The notes beneath the pieces were generated by a model, which made no database searches, was not told the DNA's origin, and worked only from the letters and a program-made list of their open reading frames with translations. The translations under genes were made by a program, and so were the position numbers. 64,000 nucleotides of DNA from Pseudothioclava nitratireducens (GTDB taxonomy: Bacteria > Pseudomonadota > Alphaproteobacteria > Rhodobacterales > Rhodobacteraceae): NCBI RefSeq assembly GCF_029210495.1, contig NZ_JARGDK010000002.1, forward strand, positions 124,001 to 188,000, written 5' to 3'. Of the stretch, positions 6,711-58,140 are shown one piece after another; position 1 is the stretch's first letter, and each line of letters begins with the position of its first letter.

Positions 6711-6766
6711 CCCGAAATATCCCGGGGGTGAATGGCGCGCAGCGCCAGAGGGGGCAGCGCCCCCTG
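6711..6766 (-). repeat. Post-gene hairpin element, copy A (downstream of erpA)
   Basis: Read on the minus strand it gives GGGGGCGCTGCCCCC, then a hairpin TGGCGC-TGC-GCGCCA, then TTCACCCCCGGGATATTT. It begins nine bases after the erpA stop and ends about 75 bases before xthA. The stem pairs are exact (6733-6738 with 6742-6747; 6750-6755 with 6759-6764). It likely acts as a transcription terminator or RNA 3'-end structure; copies recur elsewhere in this window. Confidence 0.8.
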
Positions 6767-6774
6767 CAACCGTC

Positions 6775-7110
6775 TCACATCGAAAACGAAATCCCGCAGC
6801 CGCAGGACGAGGTCGCATTCGGATTCTCGACCACGAAGCGCGCGCCGATCAGCTCATCGGTGAAGTCGATCACGGCGTTTTCCAGAAACGGGAGCGAAAC
6901 CGGGTCGATCAGCACGCGCTGGCCCGCCCCTTCGAGCACCAGATCATCCTCCGCGACCGCCTCGGCCAGCGTGATCTCATACTGAAAACCCGAGCAGCCG
7001 CCCCCCTCCACCGCAACCCGCAGCGCCTTGGGCGCGGATTGGGCGGCATTGATCTCGGCCAGTCGCGCAAACGCGCGCTCGGTCACTTTCGGCGGAAGCG
7101 TAAGGTCCAT
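6775..7110 (-). CDS. erpA: Iron-sulfur cluster insertion protein, ErpA/IscA family
   Basis: 111 residues, A-type Fe-S carrier. The three family cysteines are present: one in EGGGCSGFQYE and two in the C-terminal SSCGCGISFSM. ErpA/IscA proteins receive clusters from the SUF/ISC scaffold and deliver them to apo-enzymes. The ATG at 7110 is used; a GTG three bases upstream would add one residue. It is divergent from dgt with 89 bases between starts, so the region 7111-7199 should hold both promoters. ErpA and generic IscA/HesB naming cannot be separated with certainty. Confidence 0.88.
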   Translation of the reverse strand: MDLTLPPKVTERAFARLAEINAAQSAPKALRVAVEGGGCSGFQYEITLAEAVAEDDLVLEGAGQRVLIDPVSLPFLENAVIDFTDELIGARFVVENPNATSSCGCGISFSM

Positions 7111-7199
7111 CACATCACCTGTTCATTGCGCGCCATCCTATATAAGCTCAGGAAAAGGCGCCACAAGAAGCGGCGCAAACTGTTGTGAGGACGAGCCGG

Positions 7200-8375
7200 A
7201 TGCTCAAACCCTATGCCTGCCACCCCGAGGCCAGCCGCGGGCGGCTCCACCCCGAGAGCATTTCGACCTTTCGCTCGCCGTTTCAGCGCGACCGCGACCG
7301 GATCATCCACTCCTCGGCCTTTCGTCGCCTCAAGCACAAGACGCAGGTCTTCGTCGAACATGAGGGCGATTACTACCGCACCCGCCTGACCCACACGATA
7401 GAGGTGGCCCAGGTCGCACGCACCATCGCGAATGCGCTTGGCCTCAATACCGATCTGGCCGAGGCGGTGGCGCTCAGCCATGATCTCGGGCACCCGCCCT
7501 TTGGCCATACCGGCGAGGATGCGCTCCATGAGCTGATGGCACCTTACGGCGGCTTCGATCACAACGCGCAGGCGCTGCGGATCGTGACGCGGCTGGAGAA
7601 GCACTACGCGAATTTCGACGGGCTGAACCTCACATGGGAGACGCTCGAAGGGATGGCCAAGCATAACGGTCCGATCACCGGGCCGCTGAGCTATGCGCTG
7701 GCCGAGGTCAATGCCGAATGGGATCTGGAGCTGCACACAAACGCCTCCGCCGAGGCGCAGGTCGCCGCCGTGGCCGACGATTGCGCCTATAACCACCACG
7801 ACTTGCATGACGGGTTGCGCGCGGGCCTTTTCACCGAGGATGACCTTTGTGAGTTGCCAGTGATTGGCGAGTGTTTCGCCGAAGTCGACCGCCTCCATCC
7901 CGGCCTCGAACCCATGCGCCGCCGCCATGAGGCGCTGCGCCGGGTCTTTGGCGTGATGGTCGAGGATGTGATCGCGGTCGCGCAGAACCGGCTGACCTCG
8001 CTCAACCCGCAATCGGTGGACGACATCCGCGCGATGGAGGGGCCGATCATCCGCTTCTCAAAGCCGCTCTACCAGAATATCAAGGCGATCAAGAGCTTCC
8101 TCTTCACCCGGATGTATCGCGCACCCAGCGTCGTGGTCGAGCGCAAGCGCGTGACCGGAATGGTCAATGCGCTCTTTCCGCTGTTCCTGGAGCAGCCGGA
8201 ATTGCTGCCCGAGGACTGGCAGGACGACGTCGCCCGCGCCCGCATCCGGGGCGGCGACATCACCAGCGCCGAGGGCAAGACCGAGATGGCGCGGGTGGTC
8301 CTCGACTACGTGGCGGGCATGACCGACCGCTTCGCCATTCAGGAATATCACCGGCTGATTGGCCCGGAGGGCTAA
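7200..8375 (+). CDS. dgt: Deoxyguanosinetriphosphate triphosphohydrolase-like protein
   Basis: 391 residues. The HD-domain metal ligands appear in order: YYRTRLTHTIEVAQVART, then ALSHDLGHPPFGHTGE, then the later DD of AAVADDCAYNHHDLHDG. Length and the N-terminal HPEASRGRLHPE...SPFQRDRDRI fit the type-2 dGTPase-like family, which hydrolyses dNTPs to nucleosides and triphosphate. ATG 7200 is chosen because GAGGACGAG lies at the right distance; a GTG at 7185 is the alternative. A hairpin element follows directly after the stop. Confidence 0.93.
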   Translation: MLKPYACHPEASRGRLHPESISTFRSPFQRDRDRIIHSSAFRRLKHKTQVFVEHEGDYYRTRLTHTIEVAQVARTIANALGLNTDLAEAVALSHDLGHPPFGHTGEDALHELMAPYGGFDHNAQALRIVTRLEKHYANFDGLNLTWETLEGMAKHNGPITGPLSYALAEVNAEWDLELHTNASAEAQVAAVADDCAYNHHDLHDGLRAGLFTEDDLCELPVIGECFAEVDRLHPGLEPMRRRHEALRRVFGVMVEDVIAVAQNRLTSLNPQSVDDIRAMEGPIIRFSKPLYQNIKAIKSFLFTRMYRAPSVVVERKRVTGMVNALFPLFLEQPELLPEDWQDDVARARIRGGDITSAEGKTEMARVVLDYVAGMTDRFAIQEYHRLIGPEG

Positions 8376-8382
8376 ACCCGCA

Positions 8383-8432
8383 GAGGGGGCGCTGCCCCCT
8401 CGGGCCTCCGGCCCTCACCCCCGGGATATTTG
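8383..8432 (+). repeat. Post-gene hairpin element, copy B (downstream of dgt)
   Basis: Begins eight bases after the dgt stop: GGGGGC-GCT-GCCCCC (8385-8399), a variable hairpin GGGCC-TCC-GGCCC (8402-8414), then TCACCCCCGGGATATTT (8415-8431). Orientation follows dgt. It separates dgt from the convergent sulfotransferase gene. Confidence 0.8.
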
Positions 8433-8448
8433 AGGCAGACTGACAGGC

Positions 8449-9255
8449 TCAGGCGCTCAGGTAGCTTGCGAATTCGGGATGGGCCTCGACCCAGCCCGCG
8501 ACCTCATCGTAATTGCCGATCAGATCGGAGAGCGGCTTGTCCACCATCTTCTTGAGCTTGGGCGTCAGGTCGTGCTGCGTGACCCCGAGATAGTCCTGAA
8601 TCCGGGCGAAGGTCGCCGGCTGGCTCTCGGGGGATTGCAGGTCGCGCTCATAATTCAGTTCGAGATAGTCGAGCCCGTTGAGCGCGGCGCGTTCTTCCTC
8701 ACGCAGGCGCAGCCGGTTCGGAATTCCCTTTTCCAAACGGTCGAGCGGCAGCGGCATCTTGGCGGGCGCCCCCCCGCCCCCGTCTTTGGGCATGTGATAC
8801 GCCCCGCTCGCCTCGGCAAAGACATTCGAGACGACATGGCGCAGCGCGTTCTCGCGCCAAAGGTAGAGGATCTTCCAGCCGTGATCCTGCATCTCGCGCA
8901 GGAAGCCCCCGACATCGGTGACCCGCTGCCACGCGGTGAGTTGGTAGATCTTGACATGGAAGCCATAGCAACGCGTCGGCGCGGCGCGGGCCATGTTCTC
9001 GGCGTAACGGCGGGTAAAAGCCTTGGGGCGGTCGAGGATCTCGTCGTCGCAGCGGATCTCGGGATGGCGGTTGAGCGTCGAGGTCAGAAGCGTGGACCCC
9101 GTGCGCCCTTGTGCGAAGATCAGGAATTTCTGCTCAGGCGTCGGCGCGCGGGCACGCAGCGCGGTCCCGACCTCATTGCGCAGGCCTTCCCACGCCAGAC
9201 GGGCATAGGGGCGGCATTCGTAAGCTTCGGGCATCTCCTTGGGACGAAAGAACAT
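8449..9255 (-). CDS. Sulfotransferase family protein (NodH/Stf0-like)
   Basis: 268 residues. The segment KFLIFAQGRTGSTLLTSTLN contains the 5'-phosphosulfate-binding loop (residues 49-55), and RENALRHVVSNVFAEA matches the 3'-phosphate-binding segment of PAPS-dependent sulfotransferases. This family transfers sulfate to carbohydrates or lipids. ATG 9255 follows AAGGGGAG; a longer in-frame extension upstream lacks a ribosome site and looks non-coding. No glycan cluster is nearby, so the acceptor is unknown. The 163 bases to the divergent osmC-like gene carry promoters for both by position, but I see no clear motif. Confidence 0.82.
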   Translation of the reverse strand: MFFRPKEMPEAYECRPYARLAWEGLRNEVGTALRARAPTPEQKFLIFAQGRTGSTLLTSTLNRHPEIRCDDEILDRPKAFTRRYAENMARAAPTRCYGFHVKIYQLTAWQRVTDVGGFLREMQDHGWKILYLWRENALRHVVSNVFAEASGAYHMPKDGGGGAPAKMPLPLDRLEKGIPNRLRLREEERAALNGLDYLELNYERDLQSPESQPATFARIQDYLGVTQHDLTPKLKKMVDKPLSDLIGNYDEVAGWVEAHPEFASYLSA

Positions 9256-9418
9256 CGCGCTCCCCTTGTGGGCCGGGCGAGGCGCCCTATCCTTTTGGGA
9301 AGCCTCGCAGGGGGCGCGCTGCGCTGTCAAGACCGGCGCCAGGCGGATCACGCCACGACGCGGGGAACCCGGCGCGCTGCCTGCACGTTGGGCAGTCCAA
9401 AGCAGAGGGGAGACCGAA

Positions 9419-9841
9419 ATGATCAAGAAATCCGCATCCGCCCGTTGGGAAGGCCCGATCAAAGAGGGCAAAGGCACGATCTCGACGGAGAGCGGCGCGC
9501 TCGCAGACCAGCCCTACGGGTTTGGCATGCGCTTCGAGGGCATGCCCGGCACCAATCCCGAGGAGCTGATCGGCGCAGCCCATGCCGGTTGCTTCTCAAT
9601 GGCGTTATCGAAGGAACTCGCCGAGGCGGGGGTCGAGAATATCGGCATCGACACCAAGGCCGTGATCTCGCTGGAGAAGCAGGAAGGCGGCTTCACCATC
9701 ACTCGCTCGCAGTTGACGGTGCATATCACCGGCTCAGGCGATGAAGGTGCGATCCGTGCCGCAGCCGACGCCGCCAAAGCGGGCTGCCCGGTCTCGCGGG
9801 TACTCAATTGCGAGATCGGAATGGACCTTACGATCGGCTAA
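9419..9841 (+). CDS. osmC: OsmC family peroxiredoxin
   Basis: 140 residues. MIKKSASARWEGPIKEGKG at the start, then the first peroxidatic cysteine in GAAHAGCFSMALS and the second in AKAGCPVSRVLN, are the hallmarks of OsmC. These proteins reduce organic hydroperoxides in the cytoplasm. ATG 9419 is preceded by GAGGGGAGACC. It converges on the next gene with three bases between them and no recognisable terminator. Confidence 0.93.
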   Translation: MIKKSASARWEGPIKEGKGTISTESGALADQPYGFGMRFEGMPGTNPEELIGAAHAGCFSMALSKELAEAGVENIGIDTKAVISLEKQEGGFTITRSQLTVHITGSGDEGAIRAAADAAKAGCPVSRVLNCEIGMDLTIG

Positions 9842-9844
9842 ACG

Positions 9845-10312
9845 TCACTTCGCGGGCAATGGCCCACCGGCGTCGAGCCCGGACATCATCGCGTCGGCGC
9901 GGGCGCGCTCGATCCGCGCCCAGATGGCATTGTCCGCCTCGCCCTGCGGCCAGACACCCGTCAGCGCATAGGCGAAGCGCGGCGAATGGCGCGCCTCGCG
10001 CTCGATCCGGTCGATGAACTCCGCGCCGTGATCCGCGATCAGGTCCTCAAGAGGCCCGGCCGCCAGCATCACCACCTGCCAGATCGTGCTGGCCTGTGAA
10101 AGCGCCTGACGCACGAAGCTCCAGACCAGGTCCGGGTGATCGCGCAGCTCGAACAGGCAGGCCGCCGACCAAGGGAAATCGTCGTCGCTCTCAGGCTCGA
10201 CCGCATTTTGGGCAAGCCAGAGCGACACCAATGCCTCCAGCGTGCGAATATCCTCGGGCGCCTCGGCGGCGTTGCAGAGCACTGTCACCAGTTCGGGCGG
10301 CAGCGGCGTCAC
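9845..10312 (-). CDS. Conserved protein of the DUF6869 type
   Basis: 155 residues, acidic, no signal peptide or membrane segment. The segment DLVWSFVRQALS...LAAGPLEDLIADHG...FIDRIEREARHSPRFAYALTGVW resembles DUF6869-like proteins, whose role is unknown. The ATG overlaps the prfC stop by four bases, so it is co-transcribed with and translationally coupled to prfC. The domain name is from memory; the reading frame itself is well supported by coupling. Confidence 0.75.
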   Translation of the reverse strand: MTPLPPELVTVLCNAAEAPEDIRTLEALVSLWLAQNAVEPESDDDFPWSAACLFELRDHPDLVWSFVRQALSQASTIWQVVMLAAGPLEDLIADHGAEFIDRIEREARHSPRFAYALTGVWPQGEADNAIWARIERARADAMMSGLDAGGPLPAK

Positions 10313-11904
10313 TGCATCATTTCCTTGGTCGCCGAGAGCGTCACACCCTCATAGTCGCGCTCAACCCGGTCGATATCCCATTGCAGGCGCGTCAGGAACA
10401 CGACATCGCCGTCATGGTCGGTGCTGATATGCTGCTTGTTGGCGTTGACCAGCTTTTCGACCTTATCCTTCGGCCCGAGCACCCAGCGCGCCGAGGTGAA
10501 TTGCGAAGGCTCGAACCGCACGGGAATGCCGTATTCGATCTCGATCCGGCTCGCCAACACGTCGAATTGCAGCGCGCCGACCACGCCCACAATGAAGCCC
10601 GAGCCGATGGCGGGCTTGAACACCTTGGCCGCGCCCTCTTCGGCGAATTGCATCAGCGCCTTTTCGAGGTGCTTGCCCTTCATCGGATCGGTCGCCCGCA
10701 CCGACTGAAGCAGTTCCGGCGCGAAAGACGGGATACCGGTAAAGCGCAGCTTTTCACCCTCGGTCAGCGCGTCGCCGATGCGCAGTTGCCCGTGGTTCGG
10801 GATACCGATGATGTCACCACCCCAGGCCTCTTCGGCCAGTTCACGGTCGGCCGCGAGGAACAGCACCGGGTTCGACACCGCCATCGGCTTGCCGGACCGC
10901 ACATGCAAAAGCTTCATCCCGCGTTCGAAATGCCCCGAGACCAGCCGCACGAAAGCAACACGGTCGCGGTGCTTGGGGTCCATATTGGCCTGCACCTTGA
11001 AGACAAAGCCCGTGACCTTCTTCTCCTCGGGCGCAACCTCGCGTTCGAGCGAGCGGAACACCTCCGGTTCGGGACCGTATTCGCCGATCCCGTCCATGAG
11101 TTCCTTCACCCCGAACGAGTTGATCGCAGAGCCGAACCAGATCGGGGTCATATGGCCCTCGAGGAAGGACTGACGGTCGAAGGCGGGCAGCAACTCGCAC
11201 GCCATCTCGATCTCTTCGCGCAGCTTCGCCAGCAGATCGGCGGGGACGTGCTCGGCCAGTTTCGGGTCATCGAGCCCGGCGATCTTGATGCTCTCGGCAA
11301 CCTTGTTGCGGTCCGCACGGTCCATCAGTTCAAGCCGGTCATGCAACAGATCGTAGCACCCGAGGAAATCGCGCCCCATCCCGATCGGCCAGCTTGCCGG
11401 CGCCACGTCGATGGCGAGGTTTTCCTGAATTTCGTCGATGATTTCGAACGTGTCGCGGCTCTCACGGTCCATCTTGTTACAGAAGGTCAGGATCGGCAGG
11501 TCGCGCAGGCGGCACACCTCAAAGAGCTTCCGCGTCTGGCTTTCCACCCCCTTCGCCCCGTCGATCACCATGATCGCGGCATCGACCGCCGTCAGCGTAC
11601 GATAGGTGTCCTCGGAGAAATCCGAGTGGCCGGGCGTGTCCACCAGATTATACCGATAGCCCGCATATTCAAAGCTCATCGCCGAGGCCGAGACCGAGAT
11701 CCCACGATCCTGTTCGAGCTTCATAAAGTCCGACCGCGTACGCCGCGCCTCGCCTTTCGCGCGCACCTGCCCCGCCATCTGAATGGCGCCACCAAACAGA
11801 AGGAATTTCTCGGTCAGAGTCGTTTTACCGGCATCCGGGTGCGAGATGATCGCAAAGGTCCGGCGGCGGGCGATTTCGGGCGGAAGCGCGGGTCTGTTCG
11901 TCAT
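10309..11904 (-). CDS. prfC: Peptide chain release factor 3
   Basis: 531 residues, usual RF3 length. GTPase motifs are clear: G1 ISHPDAGKTTLTEKF, switch GISVSASAMSFEY, G3 DTPGHSDFSEDTYRTL, G4 FCNKMDRESRD. The C-terminal RF3 domain includes GALQFDVLASRIEIEYGIPV. RF3 uses GTP to recycle RF1/RF2 after peptide release. ATG 11904 has AAAGG upstream; the in-frame extension up to 11976 reads through the preceding intergenic element and is not coding. Confidence 0.96.
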   Translation of the reverse strand: MTNRPALPPEIARRRTFAIISHPDAGKTTLTEKFLLFGGAIQMAGQVRAKGEARRTRSDFMKLEQDRGISVSASAMSFEYAGYRYNLVDTPGHSDFSEDTYRTLTAVDAAIMVIDGAKGVESQTRKLFEVCRLRDLPILTFCNKMDRESRDTFEIIDEIQENLAIDVAPASWPIGMGRDFLGCYDLLHDRLELMDRADRNKVAESIKIAGLDDPKLAEHVPADLLAKLREEIEMACELLPAFDRQSFLEGHMTPIWFGSAINSFGVKELMDGIGEYGPEPEVFRSLEREVAPEEKKVTGFVFKVQANMDPKHRDRVAFVRLVSGHFERGMKLLHVRSGKPMAVSNPVLFLAADRELAEEAWGGDIIGIPNHGQLRIGDALTEGEKLRFTGIPSFAPELLQSVRATDPMKGKHLEKALMQFAEEGAAKVFKPAIGSGFIVGVVGALQFDVLASRIEIEYGIPVRFEPSQFTSARWVLGPKDKVEKLVNANKQHISTDHDGDVVFLTRLQWDIDRVERDYEGVTLSATKEMMQ

Positions 11905-11958
11905 GGTCGAGCCTTTAGCCTGCCCGCGCGAAACGGGCAATGGCAAAGGGGCTTTCAG

Positions 11959-12030
11959 GCTTTCATCAAACGGCAAATACGCCGGGGTGAATGGCCCGGA
12001 ACGGGCCAGTGGGGCAGCGCCCCTCCCCCT
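11959..12030 (-). repeat. Post-gene hairpin element, copy E (downstream of the MoxR gene)
   Basis: On the minus strand it abuts the TAA of the MoxR gene: GGGGC-GCT-GCCCC, then TGGCCCG-TTC-CGGGCCA (11992-11998 with 12002-12008), then TTCACCCCGGCGTATTTGCC and a tail TTTGATGAAAGCCTG. The tail resembles that of copies F and G, linking the two variants of the family. Confidence 0.72.
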
Positions 12031-12872
12031 TAGCGCCCCTGACGCCGGGCCATGAAGGCCAGCCGCTCGAACAGGTGCACATCCTGCTCGTTCTTCAAAA
12101 GCGCGCCGTGCAGCTTGGGCAACAGGCTCGCGCCTTCGCGTTGCAGATCATCGGGCGCGAGATCCTCGGCCAGAAGCAGCTTGAGCCAATCCAGAACCTC
12201 CGAGGTCGAGGGCTTCTTCTTCAGCCCCGGCGTCTCGCGGATTTCATAGAACTGAGTCAGCGCCGTGGTCAGCAGCGCCTCCTTGATATGGGGGAAGTGC
12301 ACGCCCACGATCTGCTTCATCACATCGGCATCCGGGAAGCGGATGTAGTGGAAGAAACAGCGCCGCAGGAAGGCATCGGGCAGTTCTTTTTCGTTATTCG
12401 ATGTGATGATGACCACGGGGCGATGGATCGCGCGGATCGTCTCGCCGGTCTCGTAGACATGGAACTCCATCTTGTCGAGTTCCTGCAAAAGGTCGTTCGG
12501 GAACTCGATATCCGCCTTGTCGATCTCGTCGATCAGCAGAACCACCTTGCCCGGTGCCTCGAAGGCCTGCCAGAGCTTGCCCTTGCGGATATAGTTCTTC
12601 ACGTCGTTGACGCGCGCATCACCTAGCTGGCTGTCACGCAACCGGCTGACGGCGTCATATTCGTAAAGCCCCTGTTGCGCCTTGGTGGTGGATTTGATGT
12701 TCCACTCGACCATCGGCAGGCCAAGGCTCGCCGCGACCTGACGCGCAAGCTCGGTCTTGCCGGTGCCCGGCTCGCCCTTCACCAAGAGCGGACGCTCCAG
12801 CGCAACGGCGGCATTTACGGCCACCGTCAGGTCCTCGGGGGCGACATAGCTCTCGGTCGATTGGAAACGCAT
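12030..12872 (-). CDS. MoxR-family AAA+ ATPase
   Basis: 280 residues. Walker A VKGEPGTGKTELAR, Walker B VVLLIDEIDKADIEFPNDLL, sensor-1 VIITSNNEKELPDAFLRRC. MoxR ATPases act as chaperones that mature metalloenzymes, usually with a VWA/CoxE-type partner encoded next to them. Here neither neighbour (prfC, dksA) is such a partner, so it stands alone. ATG 12872 has GGAG upstream; a longer start at 13013 would add an implausible arginine/cysteine-rich leader. The 222 bases to dksA hold the divergent promoters by position, without a motif I can name. Confidence 0.87.
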   Translation of the reverse strand: MRFQSTESYVAPEDLTVAVNAAVALERPLLVKGEPGTGKTELARQVAASLGLPMVEWNIKSTTKAQQGLYEYDAVSRLRDSQLGDARVNDVKNYIRKGKLWQAFEAPGKVVLLIDEIDKADIEFPNDLLQELDKMEFHVYETGETIRAIHRPVVIITSNNEKELPDAFLRRCFFHYIRFPDADVMKQIVGVHFPHIKEALLTTALTQFYEIRETPGLKKKPSTSEVLDWLKLLLAEDLAPDDLQREGASLLPKLHGALLKNEQDVHLFERLAFMARRQGR

Positions 12873-13094
12873 CGTCTCACTCCGGCTTCTCAGGTTCGGG
12901 CCGCGACAGTAGCCGCGCCCCAAAATTGCCGCAAGCGCAGTATAGCCTGATCGCACAGGCGGGTCCCAAGCGGCCCTCAGGTCAAATCGAGGGCGTGACA
13001 TCCCCTGCTGCATGGGTTAATGGAGCGCCCGAGGAGTGCCGGTATGGTTTCTGACACAATCGATAATTTCAGGGGCACGAAGGAAAGGGCAGCC

Positions 13095-13517
13095 ATGAAG
13101 GCCGAATCGTTTCTTCCCGATGATTACCGTCCCGCCGAGGACGAACCGTTCATGAACGAGCGCCAGCTCGAATATTTCCGCCGCAAATTGCTGACATGGA
13201 AAGCCGAACTGCTCGAGCAATCGGCAGAGACGCTTGAAGGTCTGGCAGAGTCGGCGCGTTCCGTTCCCGATCTGGCCGACCGCGCCAGCGAAGAGACCGA
13301 CCGCGCGCTCGAACTTCGGACCCGCGATCGCCAGCGCAAACTCGTTTCCAAAATCGATTCCGCGCTGCGTCGCATCGACAATGGCGAATACGGCTATTGC
13401 GAAGTCACCGGCGAGCCGATCTCGCTGCGTCGTCTGGACGCACGTCCGATCGCCACGATGACGCTCGAAGCGCAGGAAAAGCACGAGCGCCGCGAGCGCG
13501 TCCACCGCGACGACTGA
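13095..13517 (+). CDS. dksA: RNA polymerase-binding transcription factor DksA (one-cysteine form)
   Basis: 140 residues. The coiled-coil tip reads VPDLADRAS, so D59, D62 and A64 match the catalytic tip residues D71, D74 and A76 of E. coli DksA. The globular part keeps YGYCEVTGEPISLRRLDARP but has only one cysteine (C102); the other three zinc ligands are Thr, Thr and Ala, so no zinc finger can form. Known one-cysteine DksA proteins, including one in Rhodobacter sphaeroides, work with ppGpp to reset transcription. ATG 13095 follows GAAGGAAAGGG. A second DksA/TraR paralogue with a full finger is at 44153-44476. Confidence 0.92.
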   Translation: MKAESFLPDDYRPAEDEPFMNERQLEYFRRKLLTWKAELLEQSAETLEGLAESARSVPDLADRASEETDRALELRTRDRQRKLVSKIDSALRRIDNGEYGYCEVTGEPISLRRLDARPIATMTLEAQEKHERRERVHRDD

Positions 13518-13569
13518 TGGCGCGCAGACCCGTGCCCGCGCGGGTTTGACTTCGCTCAAAGACAATGCG

Positions 13570-13604
13570 CCACCGGCAACCGCAAGGTGCCGGTGGTTTC
13601 GTTT
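13570..13604 (+). terminator. Rho-independent terminator after dksA
   Basis: A 9-bp stem CCACCGGCA (13570-13578) pairs with TGCCGGTGG (13588-13596), followed by TTTCGTTT. It lies 53 bases past the dksA stop and just before the ribosome site of the next gene. Confidence 0.75.
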
Positions 13605-13617
13605 CAGGGGAGCCCCG

Positions 13618-14793
13618 ATGCTGATTGGCAAGAAGATTTCCGTTCTGGGCGCCGGGGTTGCGGGGCTGGCTGTGGCGCGCGCTCTGGCGCTGCGCGGGGC
13701 CGAAGTGACGGTCTTTGAACAGGCTGACGCCATCCGCGAAGTGGGCGCCGGCTTGCAGATCTCCCCCAATGGCGCGCGGGTGCTGCATGCGCTGGGGCTG
13801 GGCGAGGCGCTGTCGGAGGCCGGGCCACGCGCCGAGGCGGTTCAGCTGATCGACGGCGAGACCGAAGCGCAGGTCGCGCGGCTGGAGCTTGCGCGCCTCA
13901 GGCCCGGTGCCGAATATCGCTTTATCCATCGTGCGCGCCTGATCGACTTTCTGGCCGAGGGTGCGCGCGAGGCGGGCGTTCAAGTGCGGCTGCTGCAACA
14001 GATCGACTCGGTCGAACTGGGCGATCACCCGCCGCGCATGATCACCTATCAGGGCGCCGAGATCGAGTCGGACCTGCTGATCGGCGCGGACGGGCTGCAT
14101 TCGAAGGTGCGGCAGGCGCTCAACGGCACGATCGCGCCGTTCTTTACCCATCAGGTCGCCTGGCGCGCGCTGATCCCCTGCGGCGATGACGCCCCGAATA
14201 TCGCGCAAGTGTTCATGGGCGCGGGCAAGCATGTGGTGAGCTACCCGCTCGGGCGCGGCCTGCGCAACATCGTCGCCATCGAAGAGCGCCGCCGCTGGGT
14301 CGAAGAAAGCTGGACCCTGCGCGACGATCCGATGACGCTGCGCGCCGCGTTCGAGGATTTTGGTCCGACCGTGCGCGGCTGGCTCGATGAGGTGCAATCG
14401 CCGTGGCTATGGGGGTTGTTCCGGCACCCGGTGGCGCGGGCCTGGCACGGGCCGGGCGCTGCGATCCTCGGCGATGCGGCCCATCCGACCCTGCCCTTCC
14501 TCGCCCAAGGCGCGGTCATGGCCATCGAGGACGCGTGGGTGCTCAGCGAGGCGCTTGCCACGCATGACACCTCCGAGGCCGCCTTTGCCGCCTATCAGAC
14601 CGCGCGGCGCGCCCGTTGCGAGCGCATCGTCGAGGCCGCGAACAAGAACGCGCGCAATTATCACCTCTCGGGGCTGTCGCGCACGCTGGCCCATACCGGG
14701 CTGCGCAGCGTGTCGCGGTTCGCGCCCGCCCGGCTCTTGTCGCGGTTCGACTGGGTCTACGATCACGATGTCACGGCGGGCGCGCCCACCTGA
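13618..14793 (+). CDS. FAD-dependent aromatic monooxygenase (salicylate hydroxylase-like)
   Basis: 391 residues. The N-terminal [18 protein letters not shown] binds the ADP part of FAD, DLLIGADGLHSKVR is the DG motif that contacts FAD and NAD(P)H, and AAILGDAAHPTLPFLAQGAV is the GD motif. This group A flavoprotein family hydroxylates aromatic substrates such as salicylate or hydroxybenzoates. ATG 13618 follows CAGGGGAG. No aromatic-degradation genes are adjacent, so the substrate is open. Ends in a post-gene hairpin element. Confidence 0.85.
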   Translation: MLIGKKISVLGAGVAGLAVARALALRGAEVTVFEQADAIREVGAGLQISPNGARVLHALGLGEALSEAGPRAEAVQLIDGETEAQVARLELARLRPGAEYRFIHRARLIDFLAEGAREAGVQVRLLQQIDSVELGDHPPRMITYQGAEIESDLLIGADGLHSKVRQALNGTIAPFFTHQVAWRALIPCGDDAPNIAQVFMGAGKHVVSYPLGRGLRNIVAIEERRRWVEESWTLRDDPMTLRAAFEDFGPTVRGWLDEVQSPWLWGLFRHPVARAWHGPGAAILGDAAHPTLPFLAQGAVMAIEDAWVLSEALATHDTSEAAFAAYQTARRARCERIVEAANKNARNYHLSGLSRTLAHTGLRSVSRFAPARLLSRFDWVYDHDVTAGAPT

Positions 14794-14801
14794 ACTGGCG
14801 C

Positions 14802-14855
14802 AAGGGGGCGCTGCCCCCTCTGGCGCTATGCGCCATTCACCCCCGGGATATTTCA
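14802..14855 (+). repeat. Post-gene hairpin element, copy C (downstream of the monooxygenase)
   Basis: GGGGGC-GCT-GCCCCC (14804-14818), then TGGCGC-TAT-GCGCCA (14821-14835), then TTCACCCCCGGGATATTT (14836-14853). Starts ten bases after the stop codon and follows the direction of the upstream gene. Confidence 0.8.
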
Positions 14856-14972
14856 CGCGATTGGAAGCAGGCTCATCATCTGCATGACGATTTCGGGCAT
14901 TTCCATGTCGCGGCGGGGCTTTGCCTTCCGCGCGGCTCGGCCTAGAACGAGGGCAGGAAACGGGAGAGCGAC

Positions 14973-16991
14973 ATGGTCGAGGACGCGCTGGTTATTTTCA
15001 CGCCTTCGGGCAAACGCGGTCGGGTGGCAAAGGGCACGAGTGTGCTTGAAGCCGCACGCAAGCTTGGAGTCGATCTCGATTCGGTCTGCGGCGGGCGCGG
15101 CATTTGTTCGAAATGCCAGATCACGCCGGGCTATGGCGATTTCCCGAAACACGGGGTGAAGGTCGCGGAGGATGCGCTGTCGGCCTTCAACGCCGTCGAG
15201 GAGCGCTACGACCGCGTGCGCGGGCTCAAGCCCGGGCGGCGACTGGGCTGTCAGGCCTGCATTCAGGGCGATGTCGTGCTCGACGTGCCGCCCGAGAGCC
15301 AGGTCCACAAGCAGGTGATCCGCAAATCCGCCTCCGAGCGGGTGATGGAGATGGACGCCGCGGTGCGGCTCTGTCTCGTGGATGTGGCCGAACCCGATAT
15401 GCATGTGCCCACGGGCGATTTCGAGCGACTGGCGGCGGCACTTGAAGAGGCTTTCGGGATCAAGGGCTTGCAGGTCGATATTGAAGTCCTGTCGAAACTT
15501 CAGTCGGTGCTGCGCAAAGGCAAATGGCAGGTCACCTGCGCGATTTGGCAAGATGGCGGGGCGCCGCGTCTTGTGGGCCTGTTCCCCGGTCTGCGCGAGA
15601 CCCCGGTCTATGGGCTGGCGATTGATCTGGGATCGACCACCATCGCGGGGCACCTTGTCGAGCTTGGCGCAGGCGCCGTGCTCGCCTCGTCGGGCCTGAT
15701 GAACCCGCAGATCCGCTTTGGCGAAGACCTGATGAGCCGCGTTTCCTACGCCATGATGAACAAGGGCGGTGACGTCGAAATGACGGCGGCTGTGCGCGCA
15801 GCGCTTGGCGATCTGACGCAGGCGCTGGCCGAAGAGGCGGGCGTGAGCGCCGACGAGATCGTCGAGACGGTGATCGTCTGTAATCCGGTCATGCATCATC
15901 TGGTGCTGGGCATCGACCCGGTGGAACTCGGCCAAGCCCCCTTCGCGCTCGCGCATTCCGGCTCGGTGACGGTGCCTGCACGCACGCTCGGGATGCCGAT
16001 TGCCCCCGGCGCGATGACCTACCTTCTGCCGCTGATCGCGGGCCATGTGGGCGCGGATGCGGCGGCGGTGGCCCTCTCCGAGTCGCCCGAGACGCGCGAC
16101 GACCTGTCGTTGATCGTCGATGTGGGCACCAATGCCGAGATCCTGCTCGGCAACAAGACCCGGGTCCTCGCCTGTTCGTCACCGACCGGCCCGGCCTTCG
16201 AGGGCGCGCAGATCAGTTCGGGACAGCGCGCGGCGCCGGGCGCCATCGAACGCATCGAGATCAACCCTGAAACGCGCGAGCCGCGCTTCCGCATCATTGG
16301 CAACGAGCATTGGTCGGACGAGCCGGACTTCGGCACGCCTCAGATCACGGGGATTTGCGGCTCGGGCATCATCGAAGCGGTGGCCGAGATGCGCATGGCC
16401 GGGATCCTGGACGCCTCGGGCCTCATCGGTTCGGCGGAACAGGTCGGGACACCGCGCTGTGTCGCAACCGGGCGGACGCATGAATATGTGATCTACGATG
16501 GCCGCCCGGACGGCCCGCGCATCACTGTGACCCAAGGCGATATCCGCGCCATTCAGCTTGCGAAATCGGCGCTCTACGCAGGCGCGCGTCTGTTGATGGA
16601 CGAGATGGGCGTGGACCGGGTGGACCGCGTGGTCCTCGCCGGGGCCTTCGGTGCGCATATCTCGGCCAAACATGCGATGGTGCTGGGCATGATCCCGGAC
16701 GCGCCGCTTTCGCAGGTGTCGAGCGCGGGCAACGCCGCAGGCACCGGCGCGCGCATGGCGCTTTGTTCGGTGGCGGCGCGCCGTGCGATCGAGGCGCAGG
16801 TGCGCCGCATCCACAAGGTCGAGACCGCGATCGAGCCCCGTTTCCAAGAGCATTTCGTGGCCGCCAACGCCATGCCCCATGCCAGCGACCCGTTCCCCGA
16901 ACTCTCCAAGATCGTCACTCTGCCGGATGTTTCGTTCAACACCGGCGGCGACGAGGGCCGCGGCGCCCGGCGGCGGCGGACACGCGGATAA
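14973..16991 (+). CDS. ASKHA-domain corrinoid activation protein (RamA/DUF4445 type)
   Basis: 672 residues. An N-terminal 2Fe-2S ferredoxin domain carries C39, C45, C48 and C93 (C-x5-C-x2-C-x44-C). A middle linker is followed by an actin-like ATPase (ASKHA) domain from about residue 210, with YGLAIDLGSTTIAGHLVEL as the phosphate-1 loop and LIVDVGTNAEI and VVLAGAFGAHIS further on. Such proteins use ATP and low-potential electrons to reduce Co(II) corrinoid back to Co(I) in methyltransferase systems. ATG 14973 follows GGGAGAG. No corrinoid protein or methyltransferase gene is in the window, so the partner must be elsewhere. The C-terminus is arginine-rich. Confidence 0.86.
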   Translation: MVEDALVIFTPSGKRGRVAKGTSVLEAARKLGVDLDSVCGGRGICSKCQITPGYGDFPKHGVKVAEDALSAFNAVEERYDRVRGLKPGRRLGCQACIQGDVVLDVPPESQVHKQVIRKSASERVMEMDAAVRLCLVDVAEPDMHVPTGDFERLAAALEEAFGIKGLQVDIEVLSKLQSVLRKGKWQVTCAIWQDGGAPRLVGLFPGLRETPVYGLAIDLGSTTIAGHLVELGAGAVLASSGLMNPQIRFGEDLMSRVSYAMMNKGGDVEMTAAVRAALGDLTQALAEEAGVSADEIVETVIVCNPVMHHLVLGIDPVELGQAPFALAHSGSVTVPARTLGMPIAPGAMTYLLPLIAGHVGADAAAVALSESPETRDDLSLIVDVGTNAEILLGNKTRVLACSSPTGPAFEGAQISSGQRAAPGAIERIEINPETREPRFRIIGNEHWSDEPDFGTPQITGICGSGIIEAVAEMRMAGILDASGLIGSAEQVGTPRCVATGRTHEYVIYDGRPDGPRITVTQGDIRAIQLAKSALYAGARLLMDEMGVDRVDRVVLAGAFGAHISAKHAMVLGMIPDAPLSQVSSAGNAAGTGARMALCSVAARRAIEAQVRRIHKVETAIEPRFQEHFVAANAMPHASDPFPELSKIVTLPDVSFNTGGDEGRGARRRRTRG

Positions 16992-17000
16992 AAATCGCTG

Positions 17001-17031
17001 CATGCGCCCGCTTGACGACAGCGGGCGCATG
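17001..17031 (+). terminator. Strong hairpin between the corrinoid activator and tRNA-Gly
   Basis: CATGCGCCCGCT (17001-17012) pairs perfectly with AGCGGGCGCATG (17020-17031) around a seven-base loop. There is no T-tract, so termination is likely but not certain. It lies ten bases after the upstream stop. Confidence 0.55.
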
Positions 17032-17054
17032 ACATACCTAGCGCGCAGCACCAT

Positions 17055-17128
17055 GCGGGTATGATGTAATGGTAGCCTGTCAGCTTCCCAAGCTGAACGC
17101 GCGGGTTCGATTCCCGCTACCCGCTCCA
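17055..17128 (+). tRNA. tRNA-Gly (anticodon CCC)
   Basis: Cloverleaf: acceptor GCGGGTA pairs with TACCCGC, anticodon arm TCAGC-TTCCCAA-GCTGA gives CCC, and the T arm contains GGTTCGATTCC. The 3' CCA is encoded (17126-17128). Total 74 bases, normal for tRNA-Gly. It decodes GGG. Confidence 0.95.
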
Positions 17129-18310: not shown

Positions 18311-18352
18311 TGCTTTCTTCAAACCGGAAATACGCCCGCCGGAGGCCTCCCG
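18311..18352 (-). repeat. Short variant of the post-gene element, copy F (downstream of sufE)
   Basis: On the minus strand: GGAGGCCTCC, then GGCGGGCGTATTTCC and a tail TTTGAAGAAAGCATGG. It lacks the GGGGGC hairpin but shares the TATTT core and the gAAAG tail with copies E and G. It lies about 36 bases after the sufE stop. Confidence 0.5.
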
Positions 18353-18387
18353 CGCAGGTCATCCGCGCTGAAGGCGAGAAAGCGCGC

Positions 18388-22634: not shown

Positions 22635-22659
22635 GCCACGCGGCTGTTGTCAGTCTGCC

Positions 22660-22710
22660 AGAAATATCCCGGGGGTGAGGGCCAACGGCCCGAAGGGGGC
22701 AGCGCCCCCT
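22660..22710 (-). repeat. Post-gene hairpin element, copy D (downstream of DUF3422 gene)
   Basis: On the minus strand: GGGGGC-GCT-GCCCCC (22695-22709), then GGGCC-GTT-GGCCC (22679-22691), then TCACCCCCGGGATATTT (22662-22678). It begins 14 bases after the stop of the DUF3422 gene and lies tail to tail with the tRNA. Confidence 0.8.
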
Positions 22711-22724
22711 GGTGTCCCGACCGG

Positions 22725-24017
22725 TCAATGCCCGGTCATCCCCTTGCGGATGCGCCGCACCATCAGCCAGACGCCGAGGATCACCAGCGGCGTCGCGCCC
22801 GCCAGTACCAGCTCCTTGGACGCGCCGATCTGCTTGGCGAGCGGGTAGATCAGATACCCCACAAGGCTCACCGCATAATAGCTGATGGCCACGACCGAGA
22901 GTCCCTCGACCGTGTGCTGAAGCCGCAATTGCAGGTCCGAGCGGCGATCCATGCTTTCGAGCAGCTTCTGGTTCTGCGCAGAGCGGTCGACATCGACCCG
23001 TGTCCGCAGAAGTTCCGCCGTCCGCGTCGCGCGTTCCAACATCGCATTCAACCGGCTTTCGGCCGAATGCACCGTCCGCACCGCCGGATCGTAGCGGCGC
23101 GTCATGAATTCCTTGAGCAACTGCCGCCCCTCGAAGCGGCTCTCGCGCAGGACCGAAACCCGTTCGCGCAGGATCGCCTCATAGGCCCCGGTCGCGCCAA
23201 AGCGGAACGAGTGTTGGACCGCCAGCGCCTCCAGCTCCCCCGAGATGGTCAGAAGGTCGTTCAACATCCCCTCGGGATCGAGCGGCGCATGGGCCATCGC
23301 CTCGACCAGTTCCGAGAGCTGCGGCTCCAACTCGTTGAGGCGCTTCATCAGCGAGCGCGCCCGCATCAGGCCAAGCATCGACATCGCGCGGTAGGTCTCG
23401 ATCTCGCAGATGCGCTGCACGATGCGCCCGATCCGCCCCGGCCCGGTGCCGGGTTGAACGAAGATCGCGAACCGCATCTGCCCCGCCGGGTCGATCCTGA
23501 AATCGCCCGCGATCACCGCCGCCCCATCCAGGATCCAAGCACAGACGAGGCTCTCGGGTACGAACCAATCGGCAAGTTGCGGGGCGATAGCCTCCGGGTC
23601 CTCGGGCAATTCCTCGATGCGGATCTGGATCGCCGCGATCCGCCCGCCGGGCGCCGCCTCGATCCAGTCAGCCGGCAAGATTGCCGTTTCCGCCGGATCA
23701 TAGGGGCGCGAGGACACACCCGGCGCATGGGCGAGAAATGTCGTGAATTCGGTATGGCTTTCCCATTTGAGCGCATGCCGACCGATCTGCCCTGTGTAAT
23801 GGGTGATCCCCTCCTGCGGCAGGTTCGGCGCCCCGTGGCGCGTCAGCAGCGAGGTCAGGTGGGTGAAGTCGCGGTGCCGGTCCCTGTTGGCCGCGTCGCG
23901 CGGCTCTTTGAAGGCGACGTAGACCGCATGGCCCGGCACGCTGATCTGCGGATAGGGCCGCGCGTGCAGCTCGTTCACCAGCGCGTAGCGCTGCGGATGA
24001 TCGTCAATCGGTGCCAT
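22725..24017 (-). CDS. DUF3422 family membrane protein
   Basis: 430 residues. The N-terminal RYALVNELHARPYPQI is the DUF3422 signature. A long alpha-helical, probably coiled-coil middle part is followed by two C-terminal membrane segments (VVAISYYAVSLVGYLIYPLA and LVLAGATPLVILGVWLMV) and a basic tail. The topology suggests a cytoplasmic helical domain anchored by a C-terminal hairpin, loosely reminiscent of CorA-like architecture. Function is unknown. ATG 24017 follows GAAGG. Confidence 0.85.
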   Translation of the reverse strand: MAPIDDHPQRYALVNELHARPYPQISVPGHAVYVAFKEPRDAANRDRHRDFTHLTSLLTRHGAPNLPQEGITHYTGQIGRHALKWESHTEFTTFLAHAPGVSSRPYDPAETAILPADWIEAAPGGRIAAIQIRIEELPEDPEAIAPQLADWFVPESLVCAWILDGAAVIAGDFRIDPAGQMRFAIFVQPGTGPGRIGRIVQRICEIETYRAMSMLGLMRARSLMKRLNELEPQLSELVEAMAHAPLDPEGMLNDLLTISGELEALAVQHSFRFGATGAYEAILRERVSVLRESRFEGRQLLKEFMTRRYDPAVRTVHSAESRLNAMLERATRTAELLRTRVDVDRSAQNQKLLESMDRRSDLQLRLQHTVEGLSVVAISYYAVSLVGYLIYPLAKQIGASKELVLAGATPLVILGVWLMVRRIRKGMTGH

Positions 24018-49545: not shown

Positions 49546-49549
49546 CCGC

Positions 49550-51793: not shown

Positions 51794-51806
51794 TGTGCCG
51801 ACGATC

Positions 51807-52531: not shown

Positions 52532-52600
52532 CGTCAGCACCTCCGCCACCGATCCAAGCAGATCCGGGTTAAGAAAACGTCGAGAATGCCCCGTCCATGC

Positions 52601-52630
52601 AAAAAGGCGCGAGGAGACCCCGCGCCTTAC
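52601..52630 (-). terminator. Rho-independent terminator of the ABC importer/pyrimidine operon
   Basis: AAGGCGCG (52604-52611) pairs with CGCGCCTT (52621-52628); on the minus strand TTTTT follows. It lies 22 bases after the binding-protein stop. Confidence 0.85.
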
Positions 52631-52649
52631 GATCTCTGCCCGGCAAGGC

Positions 52650-53630: not shown

Positions 53631-53678
53631 CTTCTCTCTCCTGTTGTGACCCGGATGTAGCCCCGGTTTTTGAAACTC

Positions 53679-55393: not shown

Positions 55394-55402
55394 CGGCGCG
55401 CC

Positions 55403-56610: not shown

Positions 56611-56616
56611 CTCCGC

Positions 56617-58068
56617 TCAGACCCCGCTCGCCGGAATACCCGAACGTTGCACGGGCCGCGGCGCGGTCAGCTCTTTCCAGGTGGAGAGCGCCTTGTTCAC
56701 CGCCTGCCCCGGCGGGCGGGCGACGAATTCACCATGCCCTTCGCGCCCCTTGAAGGCGCCTTCCTCGACCGTCACCACCCCACGAGACAGCGTGTAGCGC
56801 GGCAGACCCGTCACTTCCTTGCCCTCGAAGACGTTGTAGTCAATCGCCGATTGCTGCGTCTTGGCCGAGATCACCTTGGACGCCGCCGGGTCCCAGACCA
56901 CAAGGTCGGCATCCGCCCCCACCAGAACCGCGCCCTTCTTCGGATACATGTTCATGATCTTGGCGATATTGGTCGAGGTCACCGCGACAAACTCGTTCAT
57001 CGTGATCCGCCCCGTGCGCACGCCATAGGTCCAGAGCATCGGCATCCGGTCCTCAAGCCCGCCTGTCCCGTTCGGGATCTTGGTGAAATCGCCGACGCCG
57101 TAGCGCTTTTGATCGGTGGTGAAGGCGCAGTGATCCGTCGCGACGACCGACAGCGTGCCGCCCGAAAGCCCGGCCCAAAGACTGTCCTGATGCAGCTTGT
57201 TGCGGAAGGGCGGCGACATCACGCGCCGCGCGGCATGGTCCCAATCCGCGTTGAAATACTCGCTCTCATCCAGCGTCAGGTGCTGGATCAGCGGCTCGCC
57301 ATAGACCCGCTTGCCCAGCATCCGCGCACGGCGGATCGCCTCATGGGCATCCTCGCAAGAGGTGTGCACCACATAGAGCGGCACGCCGGCCATATCGGCA
57401 ATCATGATCGCGCGGTTGGTGGCCTCCCCCTCGACCTGCGGCGGGCGCGAATAGGCATGAGCCTCGGGGCCGACATTGCCCTCGGCCAGAAACTTGGCGG
57501 ACAGCTCCGCTACCACGTCACCGTTTTCGGCATGCACCAGCGGGATCGCCCCCAGCTCGGCACAGCGCTTGAAGGAGGCGTAAAGCTCATCGTCATTGAC
57601 CATGAGCGCGCCCTTATAGGCCATGAAATGCTTGAACGAGTTGATGCCGCGATCCACGACCTCCTTCATCTCGTCAAAGACCTGCTCCCCCCACCATGTC
57701 ACCGCCATGTGGAAGCTGTAATCGCAATGCGCGCGGGTCGATTTGTTGTCCCACATCTTGAGCGCGTCCATCAGGCCCTGACCGGGCGACGGCAGCGCGA
57801 AGTCGATCACCATCGTGGTGCCGCCCGCCAGCGCCGCGCGGGTGCCGCTTTCGAAATCGTCCGCCGAGTAGGTCCCCATGAAGGGCATCTCGAGATGGGT
57901 ATGCGGGTCGATCCCCCCCGGCATCACATAGCAGCCGGTGGCGTCGAGCACCTCGTCGCCCTTCAACCCCTGCCCGATCTCGATGATCTGTCCGCCCTCG
58001 ATCAGCACATCCGCCTTGTAGGTCAGATCCGCGGTCACGATGGTTCCGTTCTTGATGACTGTGCGCAT
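56617..58068 (-). CDS. hydA: Dihydropyrimidinase / D-hydantoinase
   Basis: 483 residues. Metal ligands: His-x-His in GGIDPHTHLEMPFMG, carboxylated lysine in SFKHFMAYKGALMVND, His in IPLVHAENGDV and VVHTSCEDAHEAI, and Asp in VVATDHCAFTTDQK. It opens dihydrouracil to N-carbamoyl-beta-alanine (or hydantoins). ATG 58068 follows GGAGGAGAG. A short post-gene type hairpin lies between it and the upstream hydrolase gene. Confidence 0.95.
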   Translation of the reverse strand: MRTVIKNGTIVTADLTYKADVLIEGGQIIEIGQGLKGDEVLDATGCYVMPGGIDPHTHLEMPFMGTYSADDFESGTRAALAGGTTMVIDFALPSPGQGLMDALKMWDNKSTRAHCDYSFHMAVTWWGEQVFDEMKEVVDRGINSFKHFMAYKGALMVNDDELYASFKRCAELGAIPLVHAENGDVVAELSAKFLAEGNVGPEAHAYSRPPQVEGEATNRAIMIADMAGVPLYVVHTSCEDAHEAIRRARMLGKRVYGEPLIQHLTLDESEYFNADWDHAARRVMSPPFRNKLHQDSLWAGLSGGTLSVVATDHCAFTTDQKRYGVGDFTKIPNGTGGLEDRMPMLWTYGVRTGRITMNEFVAVTSTNIAKIMNMYPKKGAVLVGADADLVVWDPAASKVISAKTQQSAIDYNVFEGKEVTGLPRYTLSRGVVTVEEGAFKGREGHGEFVARPPGQAVNKALSTWKELTAPRPVQRSGIPASGV

Positions 58069-58093
58069 GAGGGCTCTCCTCCAGTTCGTCTTT

Positions 58094-58140
58094 CACCAGG
58101 CTGAAAATACTCCGGGGTCCGGGGACAGCGCCCCGGACCT
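58094..58140 (-). repeat. Variant post-gene element, copy G (between the N-carbamoyl hydrolase and hydA)
   Basis: On the minus strand GGTCCGGGG-CGCTGT-CCCCGGACC (58116-58124 with 58131-58139), then CCGGAGTATTTTCAGCC and GGTGAAAGACGAA. It shares the GCT-like loop, the TATTT core and the GAAAG tail with other copies. Within the operon it could cause partial termination or protect a transcript end. Confidence 0.65.

Follow-up and report, generated by a model that had tools for sequence, protein, structure and literature searches.

The window, a 64,000-nucleotide stretch of the Pseudothioclava nitratireducens genome, contains several copies of a repeat of about 66 bases that is dispersed mostly just 3' of gene ends and reaches up to about 150 copies per genome. 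We tentatively predict, with a little under even confidence, that a three-stranded (triplex-type) structure helps this repeat to stop transcription. The repeat begins with hairpin 1, whose 5' arm (R) is G-rich purine and whose 3' arm (Y) is pyrimidine, and an optional hairpin 2, free in sequence, lies 3' of it. After the hairpins comes a C-run (Y'). Its length agrees with that of R and, apart from exceptions, so does its sequence in the parallel register, which makes a mirror repeat of Y and Y'. The C-run is followed by an A/T-rich stretch, GGGATATTT or GGAGTATTT, and by a genome-specific tail. A Y' that mirrors Y beside a homopurine hairpin is the signature of a triplex, and we propose a triplex-assisted stop.

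A dispersed repeat behind gene ends

The core of the element, CCCCCGGGATATTT, occurs in 75 exact copies in its own genome (G000), where a covariance model gave 149 hits from the 150 candidates scored out of 2,895. In the family Rhodobacteraceae, the model matched 94 of the 120 genomes sampled, and in the class sample a single genome outside the family had a match. The element is dispersed, as had been predicted, and largely restricted to one family. The following copies were located in the window:

6701..6766, minus strand: copy A, with hairpin 1, hairpin 2 (TGGCGC/GCGCCA), TCACCCCCGGGATATTT (6715-6731, minus strand) and tail GCAGCGTGA; starts 8 bases past the stop codon of the gene at 6775-7110 (minus strand)
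8383..8445, plus strand: copy B, with hairpin 2 (GGGCC/GGCCC), TCACCCCCGGGATATTT (8415-8431, plus strand) and tail GCAGACTGA; starts 7 bases past the stop codon of a dgt-like gene (7185-8375)
11961..12026, minus strand: copy E, a diverged copy (37.9 bits) carrying TCACCCCGGCGTATTT, with hairpin 1 (GGGGC/GCCCC), hairpin 2 (TGGCCCG/CGGGCCA), CACCCCGGCGTATTT and a tail ending in TTTGATGAAAG; starts 3 bases past the stop codon of the gene at 12030-13013 (minus strand)
14802..14867, plus strand: copy C, the best covariance-model match, with purine arm 14804-14808, pyrimidine arm 14814-14818, hairpin 2 14821-14835, putative third-strand C-run 14840-14844, GGGATATTT 14845-14853, tail GCGATTGGA 14857-14865 and TCACCCCCGGGATATTT 14837-14853 (plus strand); starts 8 bases past the stop codon
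18313..18353 (ends approximate), minus strand: probable copy F, a short relative GCCTCCGGCGGGCGTATTTCCGGTTTGAAGAAAG with GCCTCCGGCGGGCGTATTT and a GAAAG end
22648..22711, minus strand: copy D, with hairpin 2 (GGGCC/GGCCC), TCACCCCCGGGATATTT (22662-22678, minus strand) and tail GCAGACTGA; starts 13 bases past the stop codon of the gene at 22725-24017 (minus strand)
58091..58137, minus strand: copy G, a single-hairpin relative CCGGGGCGCTGTCCCCGGACCCCGGAGTATTTTCAGCCTGGTGAAAG (12.6 bits, E 0.14, alone not significant)

The four exact matches to TCACCCCCGGGATATTT compare with 0.10 expected, and none of 100 shuffles reached four. The post-gene element is confirmed, and the family is far larger than first described. 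Copies A to E all start within 0 to 14 bases of a stop codon in the orientation of the gene, as the original prediction had stated. It had also named F and G as shorter relatives; G was seen at the low score given above and the placement of F is only probable. Probable copy F is of the same type as two other copies (L174 and L119).

At its gathering score, Rfam recovered three tRNAs in the whole window and left the element without a match. Literature searches returned no description of it, which does not prove that there is none, and passages from PMC8632094, PMC12306157, PMC1852404, PMC5089854, PMC6238624 and PMC4060949 do not describe it. Even as a mere gene-end hairpin, a repeat found in 94 of the 120 family genomes sampled and lacking an Rfam match in the window is relevant to annotation and 3'-UTR studies in Rhodobacteraceae. 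Phage origin was rejected, as a phage collection held no match to the element. We also discarded the tail as a start codon, ATG being present in some dialects only.

Genome-wide, placement after a stop codon in the orientation of the gene is strongly favored without being universal. The median distance from stop codon to copy was 5 to 7 bases, mostly in the gene's orientation. With gene calls that are imperfect, 74 of the 95 copies examined in G000 were sense to the upstream gene, 67 of these 74 lying at -5 to 30 bases from its stop; 16, of which 10 form one half of a doublet, ran antisense to the genes on either side, and 5 were called inside ORFs. None of 90 copies in G000 lay between divergent genes, and in a second genome, G001, this was the case for 1 of 70.

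The middle stem, hairpin 2, had been predicted to vary while retaining its pairing. Indeed, 27 cells were changed on both sides and none on one side only, against 9.2 after shuffling, and 0 of 500 shuffles were as high; two other measures, which count pairs or pair types, showed no excess over shuffles (223/500 and 130/500). Covariation of this stem is real. By itself, it does not establish the RNA structure for which the original prediction had taken it as an argument: the pairs comprised 290 Watson-Crick and only 1 G-U, fewer wobble intermediates than would be expected under selection on RNA alone.

Length and register of the tail C-run

The C-arm of hairpin 1 and the tail C-run were equal in length in 0.907 of 86 copies in G000 (0.614 when shuffled), 0.861 of 72 copies in G001 (0.453) and 0.903 of 72 copies from other genera (0.607), and in each of the three sets none of 20,000 shuffles was as high. 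Equality between the tail C-run and the G-arm was slightly below this agreement (0.837 in G000 and 0.750 in G001).

An A in the purine arm makes the register of the match readable. For an arm GGGGAGGG, the mirror partner expected in the tail would be CCCCTCCC, and the direct-repeat partner CCCTCCCC. Among 161 distinct copies with such an A, 135 fitted the parallel register only, 14 were symmetric and fitted, 12 fitted neither, and none fitted the antiparallel register only. In 129 of the 161, the A lies at the edge or one base in, and these may be explained by a conserved flank instead of covariation. The remaining "deep A" class (n = 32), which was gathered partly with patterns of our own, one of them fixing C elsewhere in the tail, comprised 14 parallel (mirror) only, 14 symmetric, 4 neither and 0 antiparallel only. 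Here, counted from its 3' end, the tail carries an A or T at the position that the A has in the arm. The bases opposite A were T (18), A (17), C (2) and G (2), and opposite G we found C in 185 of 187 cases.

With the tail left free, a query for GAGGGC..GCCCTC matched 26 times, in 14 of the 384 genomes searched. All 25 copies listed had an A (12 copies), a T (12 copies) or a G (1 copy) exactly three positions ahead of the C-run's end. A T at the same arm position (GTGGGC..GCCCAC) was found in 0 of the 384 genomes. Changing G to T in the purine arm requires transversions in both arms, so this absence is weaker evidence than it appears. Overall, comparative evidence of the kind used for RNA helices points to a parallel-register third strand in many copies and many genera.

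The original prediction had let the CCCCC of the tail pair with the first GGGGG, as a switch in which GGGGG alternates between the near and the far CCCCC. The run lengths are matched as this reading expects, but when the alternative was forced on two copies, their folds lost 4.7 and 4.0 kcal/mol in stability, and the register counts contradict it except in single copies such as L238, where a T sits at the antiparallel-partner position. The match is refuted as Watson-Crick pairing, and a switch of this kind is highly improbable; the resemblance nevertheless reflects something real. Had the hairpin-1 arm been copied into the tail as a direct repeat, the antiparallel register would again be expected, and this reading was rejected on the same counts.

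A putative triplex and the ordinary terminator

In the triplex-assisted stop that we favor, Y', or its G-rich template-strand complement, would join the R:Y helix as its third strand and loop out hairpin 2. The A or T, rarely C, opposite A-T pairs would best fit a purine-motif triplex formed by the template strand, with the triads G.G-C, A.A-T and T.A-T. The last T is base 9 or 10 after the C-run, which is one RNA-DNA hybrid length; the third-strand segment would thus be freed at the rear of the bubble while the polymerase copies the weak AUAUUU, and refolding there would stall the polymerase and release it at ATATTT. That many genes end in a genetically maintained triplex terminator of this type, formed co-transcriptionally behind RNA polymerase and differing in dialect between species, we regard as possible but somewhat unlikely. 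If the triplex forms, it would represent a new way of marking or ending transcription, and the copies would provide a ready test set.

The element shares with H-DNA its homopurine and homopyrimidine arms, its mirror symmetry (the parallel register holds for 28 of the 32 copies with a deep A) and the A or T opposite A-T. Stable triplexes have arms of about 10 bases or more, whereas the R and Y' runs measure 4 to 9 bases, which is short. Unlike in H-DNA, a short linker or a looped-out hairpin lies between the runs, the same arm also takes part in an inverted repeat, and the sequence belongs to a conserved gene-end element. Furthermore, the triplex model leaves the conserved genome-specific tail and the antisense copies without explanation.

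An ordinary gene-end hairpin, which would rely on its two hairpins and a weak U-tract to terminate transcription or to cap the 3' ends of mRNAs, with the mirror symmetry due to some other constraint, is a rather unlikely reading. As in an intrinsic terminator, a stable GC-rich hairpin (folds of -23.1 kcal/mol for copy C and -26.5 for copy B) lies right after the stop codon at the end of a transcription unit, with a T-rich part downstream. However, ATATTT begins 12 bases past hairpin 2 (in copy C, the hairpin ends at 14835 and ATATTT starts at 14848), too distant for a classical terminator. The T-rich part is also interrupted, a conserved tail extends beyond it, and a third segment matched in length and register is not predicted by this reading. 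Five genes were scored with the element in G000 only, and for four of them, for example after dgt, a canonical terminator was scored in the sister species, which favors this reading; yet one of these four "terminators" is the reversed neighbouring element (L047/L150) and another adjoins a degenerate element in the sister species (L030/L165).

Canonical terminators as an exclusive alternative were rejected, as they are not clearly depleted beside elements: at convergent ends, they were called in 9 of 43 with the element and 21 of 131 without it in G000, and in 12 of 37 and 37 of 85, respectively, in G001. Some copies (L019, L048/L156) have a canonical terminator upstream. The consensus of the elemental pause is G-10, Y-1, G+1; a pause at the tail G was dropped because base -1 was, by eye and without a count, not mainly a pyrimidine. 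An RNase E reading of TATTT draws no support from Rhodobacter sphaeroides, in which about 2% of RNase E sites lie in 3' UTRs according to PMC6238624.

Doublets, dialects and other repeat families

Tail-to-tail doublets of near-fixed spacing account for 44 of 95 copies in G000 (with spacers of 39 to 45 bases in 21 doublets) and 44 of 76 in G001 (32 to 48 bases in 22 doublets). Such inverted doublets beside single copies, the high copy number and the linked subfamilies with genome-specific tails recall REP, REPIN and BIME sequences, which are likewise numerous extragenic palindromes. A family of this kind, spread as DNA, tolerated by stop codons and affecting transcription only secondarily, would also account for presence or absence at orthologous stops and for the synteny breaks that adjoin some elements. 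We consider it quite improbable nonetheless. The RAYT transposase (Y1_Tnp, PF01797) was not found in G000, G001, G003, G006 or G062, and the 6 of 61 family genomes with a RAYT match (G008, G016, G045, G060, G070 and G071) had 0, 2, 0, 20, 0 and 2 model hits, so that a RAYT-driven REPIN was rejected for G000 and the other copy-rich genomes tested. In addition, the distance from the stop codon is tight, orthologous copies keep their hairpins while changing the tail (L053/L168, L047/L150), which is not whole-element copying, and no target-site duplication was seen, by eye, at the orthologous sites compared.

In every one of the 72 G001 copies scanned, the core goes with a particular tail: GGGA/AGGA cores occur with GCAAA (32 copies) and GGAG/AGAG cores with GCTC-type tails (40 copies). 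This would suit a DNA or RNA site for a family-specific protein of drifting specificity that recognizes core and tail, in the manner of uptake-sequence dialects, a reading to which we assign a low probability, as a bound protein leaves the R-Y' mirror covariation unexplained. The DNA uptake sequences of Neisseria and Pasteurellaceae come in species dialects. They form inverted pairs at gene ends and number about 1,000 or more per genome, as given in PMC1852404. The element resembles them in its inverted pairs and in the different dialects carried by sister species; unlike them, it is far less numerous, by either the exact-core or the model count in G000, and is tied to a hairpin element.

Copies and anatomy of the element

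The window holds real copies A to E of the post-gene repeat. The 17-mer TCACCCCCGGGATATTT has four matches there, all exact, against 0.10 expected. Across the own genome, which comprises 44 contigs and 3.0 Mb, there are 75 occurrences of the 14-mer CCCCCGGGATATTT and none of its reversed control. Of 52 aligned two-hairpin copies, 21, all of the TTCA type, served to build a covariance model (R1), which returned at least 149 matches at E ≤ 0.1 in this genome (among 150 of 2,895 first-look candidates). An Rfam search of the window at gathering scores gave no family for the element.

The 5' half consists of a purine arm, a short loop and a pyrimidine arm (hairpin 1), followed by an optional hairpin 2 that is missing in 20 of the 75 exact copies of the own genome. 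The 3' half runs from (T)TCA or GGA through a C-run, GGGATATTT or GGAGTATTT and three free bases to the tail.

The original prediction saw compensatory change in the middle stem, hairpin 2, and took it as an argument for RNA structure. Fifty-five copies carry 21 different stems with 290 Watson-Crick pairs and one G-U, full pairing being here a product of construction, as the pairs were set by folding each copy. In alignment A2, 96.0% of the cells were paired versus 83.1% after shuffling, and there were 27 double-sided changes versus 9.2, a number reached by none of 500 shuffles; neither the count of pairs showing a double-sided change (4 versus 3.3) nor that of pair types (7 versus 5.9) stood out. 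All 27 changes lie within hairpin 2; one-sided changes are absent from it, and its six unpaired cells are all at the innermost pair. Hairpin 2 is therefore real, and the compensatory change stands, but not as proof of RNA: with hardly any wobble intermediates, DNA-level complementarity or very strong selection is no worse an explanation than ordinary selection on RNA.

Register of the third segment

The tail C-run is as long as the C-arm of hairpin 1 in 90.7% of 86 copies in the own genome (61.4% shuffled) and 86.1% of 72 copies in the sister species (45.3%), values inflated by the shared ancestry of copies within a genome. In the better test, made on 72 copies from other genera, agreement was 90.3% (60.7%). 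None of 20,000 shuffles reached the agreement in any of the three sets. Agreement with the G-arm was 83.7% (59.0% shuffled) in the own genome and 75.0% (43.3%) in the sister species.

Because length alone fits a Watson-Crick switch (antiparallel register) and a mirror arrangement (parallel register) alike, we examined arms containing an A-T pair in 384 genomes. GGAGGC..GCCTCC arms, searched with C fixed elsewhere in the tail and found in five genomes, were followed by CCTCC in five of six cases, CCACC in one and CCCCC in none. With the tail left free, GGGAGC..GCTCCC arms occurred in two places, one parallel (stretch L237) and one whose T lies on the antiparallel side (L238). GAGGGC..GCCCTC arms, also with a free tail, gave 26 matches in 14 genomes, 11 of them in a single genome (G467); in all 25 listed, the odd base lay exactly three bases before the C-run end, as A (12), T (12) or G (1). 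GTGGGC..GCCCAC arms were found in none of the 384 genomes. The GGAGG/CCTCC variant of hairpin 1, with CCTCC or CCACC tails, recurs with a similar flank in L227, L228, L229, L231, L233, L234 and L236; L227-L229 are the three annotated plasmids, where a small gene adjoining a transfer gene precedes it.

The tally that followed covered those distinct copies, from all sequences collected, that were parsable by script. The tail was all C in 84 of 89 copies with a pure-G arm. The argument is carried by copies with an A deep in the arm, a class partly collected with the arm patterns searched: 14 fit the parallel register only, 14 are symmetric, four fit neither and none is antiparallel only. Little weight attaches to two further classes, which have conserved flanks in common: with the A one base in, 41 copies are parallel and three fit neither register; with the A at the edge, 80 are parallel and five fit neither. 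The exceptions among the deep copies are L238, L243, L151 and L125, the last being parallel by eye and parsed one base off. Opposite A, the tail base is T (18), A (17), C (2) or G (2); opposite G, it is C (185) or T (2).

The lack of antiparallel-only deep copies goes against the proposed pairing of the CCCCC tail with the first GGGGG. This fold is also the weaker one when forced (-18.4 versus -23.1 kcal/mol for copy C; -16.6 versus -20.6 kcal/mol for a single-hairpin copy), energies that bear only on Watson-Crick alternatives. A parallel-register match of purine arm and pyrimidine segment rules out Watson-Crick pairing, as well as an origin in template copying; its symmetry is that of a triplex, and it is on this mirror covariation that a claim of novelty would rest. 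A pyrimidine-motif RNA triplex needs U opposite A-U and protonated cytosines, while the purine motif permits both A.A-T and T.A-T. Since A and T are equally used opposite A-T, the purine motif is favored, in which the third strand would be the template-strand complement of the tail. Counted from the end of the C-run, the final T comes 9th or 10th in the core types observed, which matches the length of the RNA-DNA hybrid in polymerase. Because of this, we propose that the structure could act on the elongating polymerase; transcription may terminate at the element. Against such a triplex stop we count the short runs, the deep-copy exceptions, terminators that are not clearly depleted, the antisense copies and a tail left without explanation.

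Doublets, tails and turnover

Tail-to-tail doublets comprise 44 of 95 copies in the own genome and 44 of 76 in the sister species, with TTT-to-AAA gaps of 39 to 45 bases (median, 43; n = 21) and 32 to 48 bases (median, 34; n = 22), respectively. The two tails are identical in 18 of the 21 doublets of the own genome; in the sister species they differ at three or more of nine bases in 17 of 22. As these mismatched tails, and the non-complementary ones of an own-genome doublet (L022), indicate, the tail sequence seems to be maintained in its own right, beyond any pairing with its partner.

Tails in the own genome (n = 75)
GCGATTGGA, 45 copies
GCAGACTGA, 11 copies
GCAGAATGA, 10 copies
GCAGCGTGA, 4 copies
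Five others, one copy each

The sister species has GGGA/AGGA cores with GCAAAATGA (32 copies) and GGAG/AGAG cores with GCTC-type tails (40 copies), with no exception among the 72. Other genera have tails of their own, and genome G062 has the own-genome type on GGGA cores. Core and tail are linked inside one genome in L146-L179 (sister species) and L205-L212 (G062), GGGA having one tail and GGAG/GAGG another. Such linkage, with no evident pairing between core and tail, resembles what subfamilies or a recognition site would give.

Between the two species, 128 of 130 reciprocal-best gene pairs were tabulated, with the element in both for 19, in the own genome only for 5 and in the sister species only for 7, proportions biased by the choice of both sets of stretches for their elements. 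One pair counted as sister-only (L048/L156) also has the element in the own genome, behind a canonical terminator. The hairpins are nearly unchanged and the tail switched in L053/L168 and L047/L150, and in L032/L163 the element was cleanly gained or lost right up to the stop codon. Compared with window positions 1-17128, L160 of the sister species has a changed block order with intergenic ends, several bearing elements in one or other species. At this one locus, read with no control, the changes look like two small inversions, and the repeats may be recombination points.

A separate short type, GCCTCCGGCGGGGATATTT, lies at window positions 18313-18353, at L174:1909-1968 and downstream of dgt in L119, where it forms an inverted pair; its tail resembles that of the long type.

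Position and spread

The original prediction placed the element just after the stop codon, in the orientation of the gene. With genes called by our own order-4 Markov script, this held for most copies: in the own genome, 74 of 95 have the same orientation as the upstream gene, and 67 of these lie -5 to 30 bases from its stop (median, 7); in the sister species, 55 of 76 have it, with 51 in this range (median, 5). It failed for copies antisense to both neighbors (16 and 14, respectively) or inside called ORFs (5 and 6); one more in the sister species lies between divergent genes. As the stretches were chosen around copies, positions are meaningful and densities are not. In six regions read on annotated plasmids, the element follows a same-strand gene in four and is antisense between tandem genes in two (Salipiger).

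Canonical terminators are not clearly rarer beside elements. A hairpin-plus-T terminator immediately precedes the element at L019:3966-4105, L048:3987-4035 and L156:4689-4752, the L048/L156 tandem being kept in both species. A-runs lie immediately 5' of hairpin 1 in L047, L012, L022 and L150; read on the opposite strand, hairpin and run together give the convergent gene a canonical terminator, GCCCCC followed by TTTTT.

From named relatives, we infer that the family carrying the element is Rhodobacteraceae in the GTDB sense. In a smaller sample, 20 of 25 family genomes matched, namely the own and sister genomes plus 18 of the remaining 23; outside the family, 2 of 16 genomes each gave a single marginal match (E about 0.002). 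A larger sample had matches at E ≤ 0.001 in 94 of 120 family genomes, with one to at least 43 matches each among at most the best 43 candidates per genome. Among 190 genomes of the class at a cutoff of 1e-5, matches came from the own genome, a second family member and G163 of another family; the genomes shown include three from the family, and kinship was not shown for 167 of those without a match. A phage collection gave no match to the element. The named relatives with the element are Rhodobacterales, including dgt loci of Rhodobacter, Paracoccus, Paenirhodobacter and others, and nine plasmid records carry it, from Tritonibacter, Salipiger, Phaeobacter, Marinibacterium, Paracoccus and Sulfitobacter.
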